Shown piece after piece: positions 4,367-63,400 of a DNA stretch of 64,000 nucleotides. A program made the translations under genes and the position numbers. The notes below the pieces were generated by a model that saw only the letters and a program-made list of their open reading frames with translations, was not told the origin of the DNA and made no database searches. The DNA is taken from NCBI GenBank assembly GCA_029556545.1, contig JAKQEQ010000098.1, positions 1 to 64,000 of the forward strand, in the 5' to 3' direction. Source of the DNA: Candidatus Hydrogenedentota bacterium (GTDB lineage: Bacteria > Hydrogenedentota > Hydrogenedentia > Hydrogenedentales > JAGMZX01). Numbering within the stretch: the first letter of the stretch is position 1; each line of letters opens with the position of its first letter.

Positions 4367-4426
4367 GGGGACAGGCACGTCTCGAAGATTTATCCGCCGC
4401 AGGTAGACTCGCTTGTGCCAGTCCCC
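4367..4426. repeat. Interspersed near-palindrome GGGGACAGGCAC...GTGCCAGTCCCC, long-loop version
   Basis: Twelve-base arms (4367-4378 and 4415-4426) are complementary apart from one base. The same arms occur at 25462-25502 and 39854-39894 with a shorter loop. Here the loop carries 19 additional bases between two AGA triplets. The element lies between the convergent polyphosphate kinase and symporter genes, 13 bases after the first and 10 bases after the second, so it may also act as a bidirectional terminator. Confidence 0.75.
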
Positions 4427-24050: not shown

Positions 24051-27000
24051 GATGCCCGCTCCCTTCCGTCGCATGGGCGTCCCGCCCATGATTCTCTGCC
24101 TCGTCACTTGCCCGATTGCGCACCAGGGTCAGGTACGTGACCGAAGGCCGCTGGTTGATTTCGTCGAGGACGCGGAAGGCGCGCCCGCTCGCGATTCGTT
24201 TCGAGACGGCGCTCTCGGGGTCGTTCATGTCGCCGAATGCGATCGCGCCCGCCGGGCACGACTGTTGGCATGCGGGCTGGGTCATTGCGTCCGTCACCTT
24301 GACGCCGAGCCGTTTCGCCTCGATCTTCGCCTCCTGAAGGCGCTGCACGCAGAACGAGCACTTCTCCATGACGCCGCGCGATCGGACCGTTACATCCGGG
24401 TTCAGCACGAGGTTTTCGACCGGGTCGTCGTGCCGGTACGTGAACCAGTTGAACCGGCGCACCTTGTAGGCGCAGTTGTTCGCGCAGTAGCGCGTGCCGA
24501 CGCAGCGGTTATAGACCTGCGCGTTCAAGCCTTCCTCGGTGTGTACCGTGGCCAGCACGGGGCATACGTTCTCGCACGAAGCGTTGTCGCAGTGCTGGCA
24601 CATCATCGGCTGATGCGCCACGTCCACGTCATCGCCTTCGCCCGAGTAGTAGCGGTCAATGCGCAGCCAGTGCATCTCGCGCTTGCGGCGCACCTCGTCC
24701 CTGCCGACGACGGGCACGTTGTTCTCCGCCTGACACGCGACCACGCACGCGCCGCACCCCGTGCACGCGGTGAGGTCCACGGCCATGCCCCAGTGATGCC
24801 CTCGCTTCGGGTGATCGTCCGGGTAGAGGTCCCCCTCGAAAATGTGGTGCGCGTGCGGATGCCCGGCTTTCGGGTCCTTTGCGAACGCCCCGAGCGTGGT
24901 CTCGTGCAGGATGGGACGCCGCAGCCCGCCCGCGGGCGCGAGACGCGGCGGGACCGTAATGGTGTGATGCGTCTGTGTGCAGGCGAGTTCGACGCGCGTG
25001 CCCGTGGGCGTAACGGTCACGCCGCGACGTTCGTAGCGCACCAGCCCTTCCTCGATGCGCAGCAGCGGCCCCACGTCCTTGCCCACCAGCCCGTCCTCGC
25101 CAACGCTGGCACGTTTGCCGAACCAGTCCGGCCCGAGTCCGGCGAATCGCGCCGTCGCGGTTTGGCCGTAGCCGAGGGCCACGGCGACCACGCGATCATG
25201 CTGGCCGGGTTGCACGCACACGGGCAGTTCGAGGGCCGCGTCGCCGGCGTCTATGCGCACGACGTCGCCGTCACGCACGCCGAGACGCTTCGCCGCTGCG
25301 ACGGAGAGGCAGGCGTAGTTGTCCCACGTGACTTTCGTCACCGGGTCCGGCAGTTCCTGAAGCCACGGGTTGTAAGCGTGGCGTCCATCAAGTAGACCGA
25401 CCTTCGGGTACGCCGTGAGTGTGAAGGCAGCGGGATCGGGATCGGGGACAGGCAGGGGATCGGGGACAGGCACGTCTCGAAGACTCGCTTGTGCCAGTCC
25501 CCCTCGGAGGCGGGCAAAGCCGTCGTGCAGCGTTCGGTTCCAGAAGGTGTCGAAGGAGTCCGCGGTGGTCGCGCGCGGGTATACGTGGTCGCGCCAGTAC
25601 GCGCGCAGGGTGTCATAGGCGTCCGCGGGCGCGCCCATCCACGCGTGCAGGCTCTCAAGGACGGAACGGGTCTGAAAGAGGGGTCGCAGCGCGGGCTGAC
25701 GCAACGCGACGCCGCCGCTGACCGGCTCCGCGTCGAGCCAGGATTCGAGAAAATGGTGGTCGGGACACAGAAACTGCGCGGCAGCCGCCGTCTCGTCCTC
25801 CCGTTCGCCGCAATAAACGACCAACCCCGCGCGCCGCAGCAGTTCGGCGGAACACGCGCCGCCCGGAATCTCGTACACGGGATTCAGGCCGATGATCACC
25901 AGCGCGGCAACGCGGCCTTCCTCGAGTTCCCGCAGCAACCCGGCGAGCGCGGCGTCGTTGCCCTGCTTCTGCATCGAGGGCCGCCGGATGTCCAGCGTCT
26001 TGCCGTAGTTGCCGAGCGCCTCGTTAATCAGATTGCACAGCCGCTGCGCCTCGGCGTCCTGGCTGCCGCACACGACCAGACTTCGGCCCCGCGCGTCGAG
26101 CAGGCGCTTGGCAAGCGCCTCCAGCGACGTTCGTAGTTCAGCCTTCAGGCTGTCTTCGGAGAAGGGGGACTGTCCCGCTTCTCCCGTTATGCGCCCGGCC
26201 AGCGCGCGCAACACGGAACTCGCCTCATCCGGCGCGATACGGCGGCGTTCGTCCGCCTTCGTGCCCGTGAGCGACATGCGGGACTCGAACTGGACGTGAT
26301 ACGACATCTTCGGCCCGTTATCGTCGAGCCGTCGGCCCGCGCTATACGCCGCCGTGAACGCGACCGGGCTGATCCACGTGCCAAGAAAATCCGCCTCGAC
26401 GCTCACGATGACTTCCGCGCGATCAAAGCGATAGCGCGGCAGGACACGCGCGCCGTGGGTCGCCCCGTGTGCGTCGAGGATCGCCGCGACGGACAGCGGG
26501 TCGTAGACGACATGTGCGCCATCGGCGAAGGTTTCGAGAAAGCGGTCGATGCTCGCCTGCAGCGTGGGACTCGTCACAGTGCGCGAAAGGACCCGCACCG
26601 CGCCGCCCGCGCGCCGCACTTCCTCGAACCGCGCCCGCAGCGCCTGATCCACCCCGGACCACGGGGTGTCGCGGCCCTCGATGCGCGCCCCGCGCAGCCG
26701 TTGCGCGTCGTAAAGACCCAGCAGCGCCGCCTGGCCCGCGGCGCACAAGCCACCGCGCGACAGCGGGTGTTCCGGCAAGCCTTCGATCTTGATGGGCCGC
26801 CCGTCGCGGCACTTGACCAGCGCGCCGCAGCCCGCCTCGCATGCGCCGCACACCGAGGCGTAGAACGCGGCGCGGCCGGGGGTCGTACCTTCAGGGTGGT
26901 TCAGGTACGGCAGCACGTGTTGTTCGGGGGCCTTGCCGCATCCCCCGGCCGTCGCCGCGGCGGAAAGCGCAAAACCCGCCGCCTTCAGGAAGTCCCGCCG

Positions 27001-38780: not shown

Positions 38781-39803
38781 ATGGCGTCAGCACTCGCGGA
38801 AAACACACGCATCGGGTTCGGCCCGCTCACGGACGCGTTCGCTCGCGCGCACACGTACCTGCGCATCGCGGTTACTGACCGGTGCAACTTGCGATGCCTG
38901 TACTGTATGCCGCCTGCCGGTGTTTCGTGGGCGCCTTCGTCGTTGCTGCTGACGGACAACGAGTTCGTTCGCCTATGCGAATTGTTCGCGCGGCTTGGTG
39001 TGCGGAAGATTCGTTTGACGGGCGGCGAGCCGTTGCTGCGTCCGGGGCTGGCGTCGCTGGCGGGGGCGATCAAGGGTATTGGCGGCATCGAGACTGTGGG
39101 AATTACCACAAACGGTGTGCGTCTTGCGGCGCAGGCGCGGGCGCTGCGCGTAGCCGGGGTCGACCGGCTGAACGTGAGCCTCGATTCGCTACGGCGAAAT
39201 CGATTCGAGCAGATTGCGCGGCGGGACGGACTCGGCGAAGTCTTATCGGGCATAGACGCGGCGCTGGAGGCGGGCTTCACGGGCGTGAAGATCAACACAG
39301 TTGTCATGGGGGGGTGTAACGACGACGAACTAGCGGATTTCGTTGAACTGACGCGCGGGCTGCCAGTGTGCGTCCGTTTCATCGAGTTCATGCCGTTTCT
39401 CGGCAATCGCTGGTGCGACGCGCATCTGGTTTCCTACGCCTCGATGCGCGCGGCGATCGAGGCGCGGTATGCGATCCTGCCGGTAGCCGACCCGGACCCG
39501 TCCCGGGTGGCCAAGGAGTTTAAGGTCCCGGGTTTCGCGGGGTCGATAGGATTCATAACGTCGATGACCGAGCATTTCTGCGGAGGGTGCAGCCGTTTGC
39601 GCATCACCGCTGACGGCCAGTTCAAGACGTGTCTCTTTCGATCTCCTGAGGTCAATTTGCGCGACGCGCTGCGGGGCGGCGCCGCGGACGAGGAAATCGC
39701 GGCGCTGGCGGCGGAGGCGCTGTATCTGAAGCCGCGGCAACATGCCGACATTCGCGAGCTGGAGCGGCGCGCGGACCGGAGCATGTTTCAGGTGGGAGGC
39801 TGA
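38781..39803 (+). CDS. moaA: GTP 3',8-cyclase MoaA (molybdenum cofactor biosynthesis)
   Basis: The 340-residue radical SAM enzyme carries out the first step of molybdopterin synthesis. The N-terminal cluster motif is CNLRCLYC (VTDRCNLRCLYCMPPAGV), followed by RLTGGEPLLRPGL. The second cluster's cysteines are in FCGGCSRLRITADGQFKTC. The protein ends in Gly-Gly (FQVGG), as MoaA must for activity. The ATG at 38781 is chosen because upstream in-frame codons lie within the promoter. It is the first gene of the cofactor operon. The partner moaC is not in the window. Confidence 0.95.
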   Translation: MASALAENTRIGFGPLTDAFARAHTYLRIAVTDRCNLRCLYCMPPAGVSWAPSSLLLTDNEFVRLCELFARLGVRKIRLTGGEPLLRPGLASLAGAIKGIGGIETVGITTNGVRLAAQARALRVAGVDRLNVSLDSLRRNRFEQIARRDGLGEVLSGIDAALEAGFTGVKINTVVMGGCNDDELADFVELTRGLPVCVRFIEFMPFLGNRWCDAHLVSYASMRAAIEARYAILPVADPDPSRVAKEFKVPGFAGSIGFITSMTEHFCGGCSRLRITADGQFKTCLFRSPEVNLRDALRGGAADEEIAALAAEALYLKPRQHADIRELERRADRSMFQVGG

Positions 39804-39847
39804 GCACGGCCATGAGCAAAACGGTGACGATTGAGTACTTTGCCCTG
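39789..39847. repeat. 59-bp direct repeat, copy A (end of moaA and start of a moaD fragment)
   Basis: The segment runs from CAGGTGGGAGGCTGAGC to the twelfth moaD codon. It is repeated at 39904-39962 with two base differences. Between the copies lie 56 bases holding the 41-bp near-palindrome 39854-39894. Confidence 0.92.
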
Positions 39848-39949
39848 GGGATCGGGGACAGGCACGTCTCGAAGACTCGCTTGTGCCAGTCCCCGGGCCA
39901 AACCAGGTGGGAGGCTGAGCACGGCCATGAGCAAGACGGTGACGATTGA
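39812..39949 (+). pseudogene. Truncated moaD fragment
   Basis: The ATG at 39812 opens 12 codons identical in protein sequence to the start of MoaD (MSKTVTIEYFAL), then the frame runs into the inserted palindrome and ends at TGA 39947-39949 after 45 residues. It is the upstream member of the 59-bp duplication and cannot make a ubiquitin-like fold. It keeps the ribosome site of the original gene, so a short peptide may still be made. Confidence 0.8.
39854..39894. repeat. Interspersed near-palindrome in the moaD duplication, 41-bp version
   Basis: GGGGACAGGCAC and GTGCCAGTCCCC enclose a 17-base loop with GTCTCGAAGAC. It is base-for-base the same as the copy inside actB (25462-25502), and both are preceded by GGATC or GGGATC. 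Confidence 0.9.
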
Positions 39950-40172
39950 GTACTTCGCCCTGCTGCGGGAAGCGCGCGGGTGCGCGCGCGAGAAGCGGGA
40001 AACGGACGCCGCGACCCCTCGGGTGCTTTACGGCGACTTGCGCGCGCGCTTCCGGCTGCCGATCTCGGCGGAGGCGATGCGGGTGGCGGTAAACGGCGCG
40101 TTCGCGTCGTGGGACGTTCCGCTGCACGACAACGACACGGTCGCGTTCATTCCGCCCGTGGCGGGAGGCTAA
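39927..40172 (+). CDS. moaD: Molybdopterin synthase small subunit MoaD
   Basis: The 81-residue ubiquitin-like protein begins MSKTVTIEYFALLREARG and ends PPVAGG; the C-terminal Gly-Gly is the site that is adenylated by MoeB and thiocarboxylated. VAVNGAFASWDVPLHDNDTV is the typical core. It gives sulfur to MoaE in molybdopterin synthase. The intact gene is the downstream copy of a 59-bp duplication; the moaE-moeA fusion starts two bases after its stop codon. Confidence 0.92.
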   Translation: MSKTVTIEYFALLREARGCAREKRETDAATPRVLYGDLRARFRLPISAEAMRVAVNGAFASWDVPLHDNDTVAFIPPVAGG

Positions 40173-40174
40173 TC

Positions 40175-41917
40175 ATGTTTCGTCTTACCCACACCGCTAT
40201 CGAGCCTTCCTCATGGAGCGCCCTTTGCGCGTCACCGCGGGCTGGAGCGCTTGCGACGTTCGAGGGCCGGGTGCGCGACCACGACGGGGGCCGCGCGGTA
40301 ACGGCGCTGGTGTACGAGGCGTACGAGGGGCTGGCCGTGGATGAGGGCGAGCGGATACTCGGGGAGGCGCTCGAACGGTTCCCGGCGGAGGCGGCGGTGT
40401 GCGTGCATCGTCTGGGCCGGATCGATGTGGGGGAGACGGCGGTGTGGATTGGGGTGAGCGCCGCGCACCGGAAGGCGGCTTTCGCGGCGTGTGAATACAT
40501 CATCGACGAACTGAAGTCGCGCGTGCCCATCTGGAAGAAGGAGTTGTACGCGGACGGCGATGCGGCGTGGGTGGGCGCGGGGCGAGGAGTCCACGTTCCA
40601 CGGGCGGGACGCGCGTGCTCCCTCCGCATGATCGACCCGGATACGGCGCTTTCGCTTGTGCGGGACACCACGGAGCCTTTGGCCCCGGTGCGAGTGCCTG
40701 TTCGAGACGCTCTCGGCCTGACGCTGGCGGAGGCGGTGTGGGCGGACCGGGCATATCCGCCCTTCGATAGGGCAATGATGGACGGATACGCGGTCCGTCT
40801 GGCAGACGCCGGTGGGGCGGCGCGGGTCGCGGGTGAGATCGCGGCGGGCGGGTGCGTGGATCAGACGCTTGAAGACGGTGTGACCTACGCGATCATGACG
40901 GGCGCACCATGCCCTCCGGGAAGCGAGGCGGTGGCGCCGGTTGAAGTCGCGGAGCGCCGCAACGGCGCGGTGCACGTGCCCTCGCGGATAGCGCCGGGCG
41001 AACATATCGCGAGGATGGGGAGCGAATGCGCCGCGGGCACGGTGGTGGCGCGGCCCGGCGACCGGATCACCCCGCTGGTTATCGCCAATCTGGCGACCTT
41101 CGGCTACACACACGTTCGCGCCGTGCCGAAGCCGGTGTGCGCCGTTATCACCACCGGATCGGAACTGGCGGACGAGAATGGCGGGCCGGGACCGTTTCAA
41201 ATCCGCGACGCGAACGGTCCCATGCTTGCGGCGCTGCTGGATCAAGCGGGCATCCGGCGGCAGATGCGTGGGCACGCCGCGGACAACCTGGAATCCCTTC
41301 GCGCGGCGCTTGAAGAAGCGCGACATGCCGACGTCGTGCTGCTCACCGGCGGCGTATCGGCGGGGGCGTATGACGTCGTGCCCGCCGCTCTCGCGGCGCA
41401 CGGCGTGGACGTGTTATTTCACAAGGTGACGCAGAAGCCCGGAAAGCCGCTCCTGTTCGGCAAAATGGGCACGCGCCTTTTCTTCGGCTTGCCGGGCAAT
41501 CCGCTGGCGACGCACCTGGGGTTTCATCGTTACGTGCTGCCGGCGCTGTGGGCGCTCGCAGGATGCGCCGCGCCGCCGCAGCCGCCGCGCGAAGGCTGCC
41601 TGACGGGAGAACTCCGGGGCGTACGATCTCGGACCCTGTTTCAGTTGTGCGGCGCGGTGTGGATCGATGGCGCGTGGCACATCACGCCGTTGCCGTGCAA
41701 GGGGTCCGCGGATATCTTCAGCGTTGCCACGGCGAACGCCTATGTCCGGGTGGACCCCGGCGCGGCCCCGCGTCACGCGGGGGAATATGTCCCGTTCACG
41801 ATGCTGGGGGAAGAAGGCCCATATTCCACGGGCGGGACGCCCGTGTCCCCTCCACAATACTTAGGGAAGAAGGCCCATACTCCACGGGCGGAACGCCCGT
41901 GCCACGTCGCGGGATAA
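40175..41917 (+). CDS. MoaE-MoeA fusion: molybdopterin synthase large subunit joined to molybdenum insertase
   Basis: One uninterrupted 580-residue frame joins two enzymes. Residues 1-137 are MoaE (FEGRVRDHDGGRAV, ACEYIIDELKSRVPIWKKE with the catalytic Lys region). Residues from about 152 are MoeA: PPFDRAMMDGYAV, TGAPCPPGSEAV, LTGGVSAGAYDVV, KPLLFG and GLPGNPLATH. The linker (about 138-151) is encoded by a palindromic repeat at 40596-40617. The last 37 residues, after FTMLGEE, are encoded by two further copies (41807-41905). An internal ATG (40628) could start MoeA alone, but it has no ribosome site. The two activities act at consecutive stages of cofactor synthesis, so fusion is tolerable. 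Confidence 0.88.
   Translation: MFRLTHTAIEPSSWSALCASPRAGALATFEGRVRDHDGGRAVTALVYEAYEGLAVDEGERILGEALERFPAEAAVCVHRLGRIDVGETAVWIGVSAAHRKAAFAACEYIIDELKSRVPIWKKELYADGDAAWVGAGRGVHVPRAGRACSLRMIDPDTALSLVRDTTEPLAPVRVPVRDALGLTLAEAVWADRAYPPFDRAMMDGYAVRLADAGGAARVAGEIAAGGCVDQTLEDGVTYAIMTGAPCPPGSEAVAPVEVAERRNGAVHVPSRIAPGEHIARMGSECAAGTVVARPGDRITPLVIANLATFGYTHVRAVPKPVCAVITTGSELADENGGPGPFQIRDANGPMLAALLDQAGIRRQMRGHAADNLESLRAALEEARHADVVLLTGGVSAGAYDVVPAALAAHGVDVLFHKVTQKPGKPLLFGKMGTRLFFGLPGNPLATHLGFHRYVLPALWALAGCAAPPQPPREGCLTGELRGVRSRTLFQLCGAVWIDGAWHITPLPCKGSADIFSVATANAYVRVDPGAAPRHAGEYVPFTMLGEEGPYSTGGTPVSPPQYLGKKAHTPRAERPCHVAG
40596..40617. repeat. Palindromic repeat at the MoaE-MoeA junction
   Basis: Twenty-one of 22 bases match the repeat at 41825-41846 at the 3' end of the same gene (core CCACGGGCGGGAC). 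It encodes the inter-domain linker of the fusion. Confidence 0.8.
41807..41905. repeat. Two tandem copies of a palindromic repeat at the 3' end of moaE-moeA
   Basis: The unit GGGAAGAAGGCCCATA followed by CCACGGGCGGGACGCCCGTG occurs at 41807-41849 and again at 41863-41905, with a 56-base period. Both copies are read as the C-terminal tail of MoeA. Confidence 0.85.
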
Positions 41918-60452: not shown

Positions 60453-63400
60453 ATGAAGAACCATGGGTTGCGGGGGCAAAAGGGACAGGTGTGCGCGCTG
60501 CCGCCGTTTCTCCTGCTGGTTGCGGCGTTACTGCTGACCTCGGGCGCGGCGGACGCCGCCCTCACCGGCTATTACTATTACTCGACGGGCGGCACCGCGC
60601 CGAATTTCGGGTCGTTGATCATGACCCGATCCGACGCCGATGTGAATTTTAATTGGGGTACCGGAAGCCCCGGCGGGGGCGTGCCGGTCGAAAACTTCTG
60701 CGTGAGTTGGCGGGGCGTGCTGACGATTCCTACCGAGGGCGACTGGACTTTTTACACGTTGTCGGACGACGGTGCCCGGCTATACGTTGACGGCCAGCGT
60801 ATTATCGAGTTCTGGCAGGATCACGGCGCCACTGTCGAACAATCGGGCACAAGATTTCTGACGGCAGGCAAGCATGACATTGTGCTGGATTACTACGAGA
60901 ACACCGGCGGCGCACGGATCGAACTTCGCTATTCCGGGCCGGGGGTGGGAAAACAAATCATTCCGAGTTCGGCCACGTCGCCCTTGCCCACCAGCCCCAC
61001 GGGCCTCCTCGGGCGCTGGTACACGGTAAACGACTGCGCCGGAAACTGGGGAACGCTGGCCGGAAACCGCGTGGACGGAAACATCAGTTTTGGGGATGGG
61101 TTCATCCCACCATACGGGTTGCCGGTGGAGTATTTTGGGGGGCGCTGGGTCGGGCGCATCAATATTCCGACGACGGGGAACTGGACGTTCTACAGCAGGA
61201 CCGACGATGCAGTGCGTTTTTATATCCAGGAAGACGGTAGCGGCAACCTCATGAGAAGAATTGATCACTGGGGCGGCGGCGGCGCCGAGTACAGTTCTCC
61301 CCCGATTTTTCTTCACGGCGGTCTCCACAATATCGCCGTGGATTTCTTTGAATGCACGGGACAGCAATATATGGAGCTGCGCTGGCAAGGGCCGAACCAA
61401 GGGAAAGACATCGTCCCACAGAGCGCGCTTTTCCAGCACCAGAACGGCCTGATCGCCGAGTTCTTCAATAATCAAGCTGTCTCAGGTGTTCCGGCCGTAT
61501 TCCGCAACGACTACTATCTCAAGTTCAGCAGCTGGGGCGGTCCCCCGCAGGACAGCATCGGCGGGGACAACTTCTCCGTCCGTTGGCGCGGAAAAATATA
61601 TATTCCCACCAGCGGTGACTACACGTTCTACTCGACGACGGATGACGGTACCGAGTTATGGGTAAATGGGCAACGGATTATTGACTGGTTTTCGTCAAAT
61701 AATGGGATGACGGAGCGCACTAGCTCGCTAATCACTTTGACGGGGGGACGGAGATACTTCATCGACTGGCGAATGCGTGAGAATGACGGCGGAGCGGGGG
61801 CTGAATTGCGTTGGTCGGGCCCGGGGATCGCGAAGCAGTTTGTCTCCGACCAGAACCTGTTCCCCATCCTGAACGAGACCCCGACGGGCATCGCCCTCGA
61901 CAAGAATTACTTCTACGACGATGAGGGTCTGAACGCGACGGTCGGCAACCTGTCCACGACGGATCCGGACAATACGTCCGGGGGCTCCCAATCGCACACG
62001 TACACGCTGGTCGCCGGCGTGGGCGACACCCACAACGGTTCGTTCTCGATTTCCGGCAATCAACTGCGCGTGAACAACGCCGCGATGGCGCTCGGCACCT
62101 ACAGTGTTCGCATAAGGACCACGGACAACGGCCAGATTCCCGACAGGCTCTACACGGAGCAGGCGTTCACTATCTCGTGCCTTACCGCGCCGACGGTGAC
62201 GAACGTGACGAGCAGTCTGGCGAATGGGTACTACAAGGCGGGGCAGGTGGTGCCGGTGCAGATCACCTTCAGCAAGAACGTCACCGTGCAGTCCGGTCCG
62301 CCTTATCTCGCGCTGAACAGCGGTGGCGCGGCCACGGCGACGTATGCGAGCGGGAGCGGCACGAGTACGCTCACCTTCAATTACACGGTTGCGGCGGGCG
62401 AGAACTCGACGGACCTCGACTATATGGGCGTGGGCGCGTTGAATGCGGGTGGCGGCACAATCCGGGACGTTAACGGCAAGGACGCCGTCCTGACGCTGGC
62501 GGCCCCGGGCGCCGCGGGTTCGCTGGGCTTCAATAAGGACCTCGTGATTGACACGATCGCGCCGACGGTATCATCGATCGTTCGGCAGACGCCGTCGGGC
62601 CAGGCCACGAACGCGGCGCAGGTCACGTGGCGGGTGACGTTCGGCGAGGACGTGACCGGGAGCGTCGGCGCGACCGACTTCACGTTTACACCCACCGGCA
62701 CGCTCAGCGGGTACTCCGTGCAGAGCGTGACGCCGTTCGGGAGCGGGGGAACGACGTATGACGTGCTGTGCAATACGGGCACGGGCGACGGCATATTGCG
62801 CCTGGACGTGGTGACGCCCGCCGCGGTCATTTCCGATCTGGCGGGGAACAACCTGACGGCCAATTACACCACGGGCCAGACGTATATCGTCGATAAGACG
62901 GCGCCCACGCCGCCTGCGGCGAACGCACCGGCCTATGACAACGCGAGCCCGATCCCCGTGGGCTACGGCGCTTCGACGGACAACCTTACGGGGGTGGCGA
63001 GTGTGCGGCTTTGGTACAAGAAGGGCGCGGGCGGCACGTGGACCGATTCCGGGATGTCGGGCGTTGCGGGGGGCGGCACATTCAACTTCATCGGGATGAC
63101 GGGCGAGGACACGTACTATTTCGACGTCGTGGTGACCGACAATGCGGGCAACAGCAGCCCAGCGGCCTCTGGCGACGGGGATTCGAGCACCATCTACGAC
63201 ACGACGCCGCCGACGGCGCCCTCGGCGAGCTCGCCCGCTTACGACAACGCGAGCCCGATTCCGGTGACCTACGGCGTCTCGTCGGACAATCTGAGCGGCG
63301 TGGCGCTCGTCCGACTCTGGTACAAGAAGGGCGCCGGCGGCGCGTGGACCAACTCGGGTCTGTCGGGCGTGCCGGGCGGCGGCACGTTCAACTTCGCGGG

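Follow-up and report, generated by a model that had tools for sequence, protein, structure and literature searches.

Within a cluster of genes for the molybdenum cofactor, the start of moaD is found twice, with a palindrome between the two copies. This arrangement raises the question of whether such a duplication is the mark that the palindrome leaves wherever it inserts or an accident of this single site. The analysis covered the surrounding stretch of 64,000 nucleotides (hereafter, the window), the rest of the draft genome and its relatives.

The duplicated moaA-moaD junction

As an earlier note on this DNA had described, two near-identical direct repeats of 59 nt (57 of 59 positions, 97%; spacing 115) surround a 56-nt insert (39848-39903) that bears the palindrome. 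The features of the site, together with the two other members of the palindrome family in the window, are the following:

39789-39847, + strand: upstream 59-bp copy, with the end of moaA (QVGG*), a ribosome site and 12 codons of a truncated moaD
39848-39853, + strand: GGGATC, an unpaired 5′ edge that is frequent among family members (flank column counts, 50 rows)
39854-39894, + strand: REP-like imperfect palindrome, 41-bp short-loop form
39895-39903, + strand: GGGCCAAAC, 9 bp, matching the flank of no other family copy
39904-39962, + strand: downstream 59-bp copy, with a ribosome site and the start of the intact moaD
39927-40172, + strand: intact moaD (ThiS family, PF02597)
25462-25502, + strand: second exact 41-mer of the window; its flanks are not duplicated, but its 5′ edge shows an 18-bp stutter at 25444
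4367-4426, + strand: third family member of the window, a 60-bp form with an enlarged loop and no flank duplication

The moaD site has a flank-repeat score of 53, whereas 120 positions drawn at random from the same window reach 29 at most. The upstream copy comprises the final codons of moaA with their stop, a spacer, the likely ribosome site and moaD codons 1-12, and the truncated frame that starts there (45 codons) reads through the palindrome and ends after about 7 codons of the second moaD start. By contrast, the moaD that follows is intact (81 aa, 51.7 bits to the ThiS family), so that a broken gene upstream and a whole one downstream, also proposed in the earlier note, are borne out. Full-length relatives of this MoaD were found in 28 of 100 genomes. 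The two differences between the copies (AAA/AAG and TTT/TTC) are both synonymous in moaD. The sequence of the site is free of N runs, and the genome holds one moaD and one strong moaA. As RNA, the whole 174-nt stretch has a structure within the ordinary range (z = -1.12). Elsewhere in the same cluster, the end of a moeA-like gene (41808-41901) carries a 56-bp shifted repeat with a third type of palindrome (ACGGGCGGGACGCCCGT).

A REP-like palindrome family

The 41-mer is present as first described, although the palindrome is imperfect: its 12-nt arms form 11 pairs, with one A.A mismatch, and enclose a 17-nt loop. As single-stranded DNA, the 56-nt insert is predicted to fold at -16.6 kcal/mol (z = -3.65), and none of 200 shuffles was equally stable. 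The 41-mer occurs exactly eight times in the genome (the moaD site and seven others) and 14 times within three mismatches, and the whole family comprises about 50 near-identical copies. A pattern of intact 12-nt arms with any loop of 5-35 nt finds 43 copies, mostly of 35-52 bp, while the reversed control pattern finds none. Since copies were found by pattern and then fetched as stretches, these counts describe the better preserved members, and badly decayed ones are missed.

Across the family, the outer arms (GGGGAC-A-GGCAC / GTGCC-A-GTCCCC) are near-constant and the A.A mismatch is fixed, while the inner part varies, giving total lengths of 35, 41, 49, 50, 52 and 60 bp. In the 52-bp form, five pairs are changed on both sides, four of them in the inner stem. 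Covariation in this form is 0.210, versus 0.070 in shuffles (0 of 500 as high), with 98.9% of the cells paired and 14 double-changed cells versus 5.9 in shuffles. GGGATC is the preferred sequence to the left of the arm, whereas conservation ends at the right arm.

The family occurs as singlets and as tandem clusters. Stutters of the REP edge or tandem units are seen at 25444-25473 in the window and at copies on contigs C87 and C182, which suggests that copying errors occur beside these hairpins. Thirty-one of 49 copies lie within a long ORF, versus 88% of random positions, a comparison blurred by spurious ORFs in GC-rich DNA. On contig C24, near 63170-63275 of the fetched stretch L058, a REP loop holds a 60-bp insert (CCTCCTTCGCCAAGG...), an instance of other DNA within the loop, and on C124 (L078, 1217-1286) the loop of another copy contains a perfect 31-bp tandem repeat. 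Beyond this genome, the pattern was found twice in a genome of the same genus; among 66 others from the order, two have a single copy, and the remaining 64 of the 68 genomes searched have none.

These hairpins resemble the known REP/RAYT systems in their size, in their imperfect GC-rich hairpin with a stem mismatch, in their many near-identical copies, in their occurrence as singlets and tandem clusters and in the presence of a RAYT-like gene between copies. They differ at the edge, as neither a GTAG nor a CGTC end tag was found: the 5′ edge is GGGATC (or variants such as GGACTT) instead of the GTAG tag, and CGTC is present where the arm meets the loop, not as an end tag (PMC3733652). For this reason, we file them as a REP-like family outside the GTAG and CGTC superfamilies. 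The palindrome works like a REP element, with most of the features by which such elements are recognized, and REPs are a known kind of repeat. It is thus very likely one copy of a REP-like family, and the family is probably a REP-type, non-autonomous mobile element.

RAYT-like and other Y1 genes

On contig C101, a RAYT-like ORF lies between two 49-bp family copies, one 23 bp ahead of it and the other 9 bp behind. This ORF scores above the cut-off for PF01797, while its match to NF047646 (71.3 bits) is below the 80-bit NCBIfam cut-off. Described RAYTs have inverted flanking REPs (PMC2817692), whereas the two REPs beside this gene are in the same orientation, with a third, inverted copy about 100 bp further. 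A second RAYT match, above the cut-off, lies on C36 about 0.85 kb from a family copy. In total, five proteins of the genome match Y1_Tnp (PF01797), a likeness to the IS200/IS605 elements, from which the palindrome differs in carrying no gene. A Y1/HUH RAYT-like protein encoded in this genome probably mobilized the palindrome in the form of single-stranded DNA. Of the HUH-type insertion that had been suggested for this site, the REP-like element and the HUH/Y1 (RAYT-type) genes are indeed there, while the long duplication does not hold as its mode of insertion (see below).

The window itself contains an IS200/IS605-type Y1 transposase gene (13277-13858; NF033573, above the cut-off). After it, at 13903-14232, comes a direct duplication of 184 bp in which a different palindrome (CCCGGCTGAAGCCGGG) is abundant.

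The duplication is not the insertion signature of the element

The earlier note had advised a search for other copies of the element and had named copies without duplications as evidence against its reading. For every copy fetched (49 distinct), we compared the flanks over 300 bp in both directions. Flank-repeat scores at the other copies range from 7 to 15, like those of random positions, with the sole exception of one on C55, which scores 20. Among these copies, a duplication of unique flanking sequence brackets the copy at the moaD site and none of the approximately 48 others. The C55 repeat (26 bp, three mismatches) was considered as a second target duplication and rejected, as it occurs 18 times in the genome and is therefore a dispersed repeat, not a copy of the target. 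The dispersed motif CTACTCCGAAAATCGACTCG is found near several contig ends (C10, C87, C128, C142 and C18), at a distance of about 110-160 bp, which suggests a longer repeat that broke the assembly.

A nested insertion on C186 is also informative. There, a 41-bp copy sits within the loop of a 52-bp copy, and the outer element is split (...GTCTCCCCC / GTGGCGCGGGG...) with no duplication. As neither the other copies nor this nested one are accompanied by a duplication, the 59-bp duplication is not the insertion signature of the family, and the refuting outcome named in the earlier note is what was observed. The duplication is specific to the moaD site, and we think that it represents a single, local rearrangement of the moaA-moaD junction. 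A strand-slippage or other replication-linked origin, as originally suggested, is possible for this one site. Local duplication beside REPs has already been described, since the tandem units of REPINs in Pseudomonas fluorescens SBW25 include flanking sequence (PMC3116915). In contrast to such clusters, the moaD site, a single site, doubles only the flank and keeps a single REP (A-REP-A).

Origin of the arrangement

Both junctions of the locus appear ancestral: the left one because the closest MoaA (61% identity) ends in SMFQIGG, where the sequence entering copy 1 reads SMFQVGG, and the right one because the intact ThiS-family frame continues from copy 2. The extra 115 bp is then the derived state, as far as distant relatives can indicate. 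A search for an empty site found no close relative in the collections examined: the closest MoaA proteins (61% in genome G016 and 60% in G001) are not followed by moaD, a MoaA relative at 52% in the contig collection has no adjacent moaD, MoaD matches elsewhere do not exceed 53%, and the plasmid search returned only a short moaE match.

The likeliest origin, to which we give a probability of about 0.5, is one event in which replication switched template to a REP and back. The product, A-REP-A, is what is observed. In the proposed mechanism, the nascent strand would leave its template at moaD codon 12, copy a REP together with its GGGATC edge and then re-anneal 59 nt upstream, thereby producing A-REP-A in a single event and keeping one whole moaD. 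The preferred left edge of the family begins exactly at the end of copy 1, and the 9 bp of GGGCCAAAC precede copy 2; one template switch would explain both. Additionally, copy 1 ends in CCTGG and copy 2 begins with CCAGG, and the pairing that these two allow would place both junctions near the base of the hairpin. Against a template switch, no donor REP with GGGCCAAAC as its right flank was found among the family copies, and the CCTG/CCCTG shared beside two others (C151 and C87) amounts to only 4-5 bp. The differences between the 59-bp copies were also considered as a means to date or order the events and set aside, as they are too few, both synonymous and, if the dead copy is the one that changed, both from G/C to A/T.

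Other origins can be envisaged. The HUH enzyme of the element could make long target duplications by nicking two strands far apart, and the coincidence of the duplication with the element edge and the presence of Y1/HUH genes agree with this. We nevertheless give it hardly any credence, given the unduplicated flanks of the other copies and of the nested C186 insertion and the fact that IS200/IS605 enzymes generate no larger target duplications (PMC2817692). It is also very improbable that REP insertion in this lineage is sometimes linked to the fork and copies tens of target bases, the moaD copy having been caught before loss of its duplication. The same end product could result, again in a single event, from the repair of a staggered break whose 59-nt overhangs were filled in while a REP fragment was captured; yet a search of the genome (96% complete) detected no Ku gene, which makes classical bacterial end joining unlikely, and we regard this explanation as quite improbable.

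An origin in two steps, in which a short duplication of the moaA-moaD junction arose first (the 9-bp filler included or not) and an ordinary RAYT-type insertion of the REP at the junction, without target duplication, came later, is a more serious though still rather unlikely alternative. Insertion without duplication is the rule for the family, and the window has short local duplications that do not involve it (for example, a shift of 184 at 13903-14048 and of 56 at 41808-41845). The two synonymous differences would also fit if both copies were once under selection (probability by chance 0.04-0.09), but this signal is weak and equally fits G/C-to-A/T decay of a dead copy. Furthermore, the conserved left edge of the REP would have to coincide precisely with the end of the first copy, and a 59-bp tandem duplication by itself should be unstable. 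An error of assembly, in which two strain variants of the junction were joined along a path through the repeated REP, is unlikely. The genome is a draft of 195 contigs with 4.27% contamination, REPs that recur in many exact copies offer natural branch points, and only two synonymous differences separate the copies, as might be the case between two strains; however, both junctions must still exist in some molecule, and the single moaD and strong moaA, with an uninterrupted sequence at the site, speak against it.

Significance

Ideas on how REPs insert are unchanged by the duplication at the moaD site. What the palindrome contributes is a REP-like family whose 5′ edge is unusual, whose inner hairpin varies and which adjoins a RAYT-type gene; within the lineage, its exact pattern is almost restricted to this genome. 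The moaD site, moreover, illustrates one way in which the start of a gene can survive the landing of a palindrome in it.
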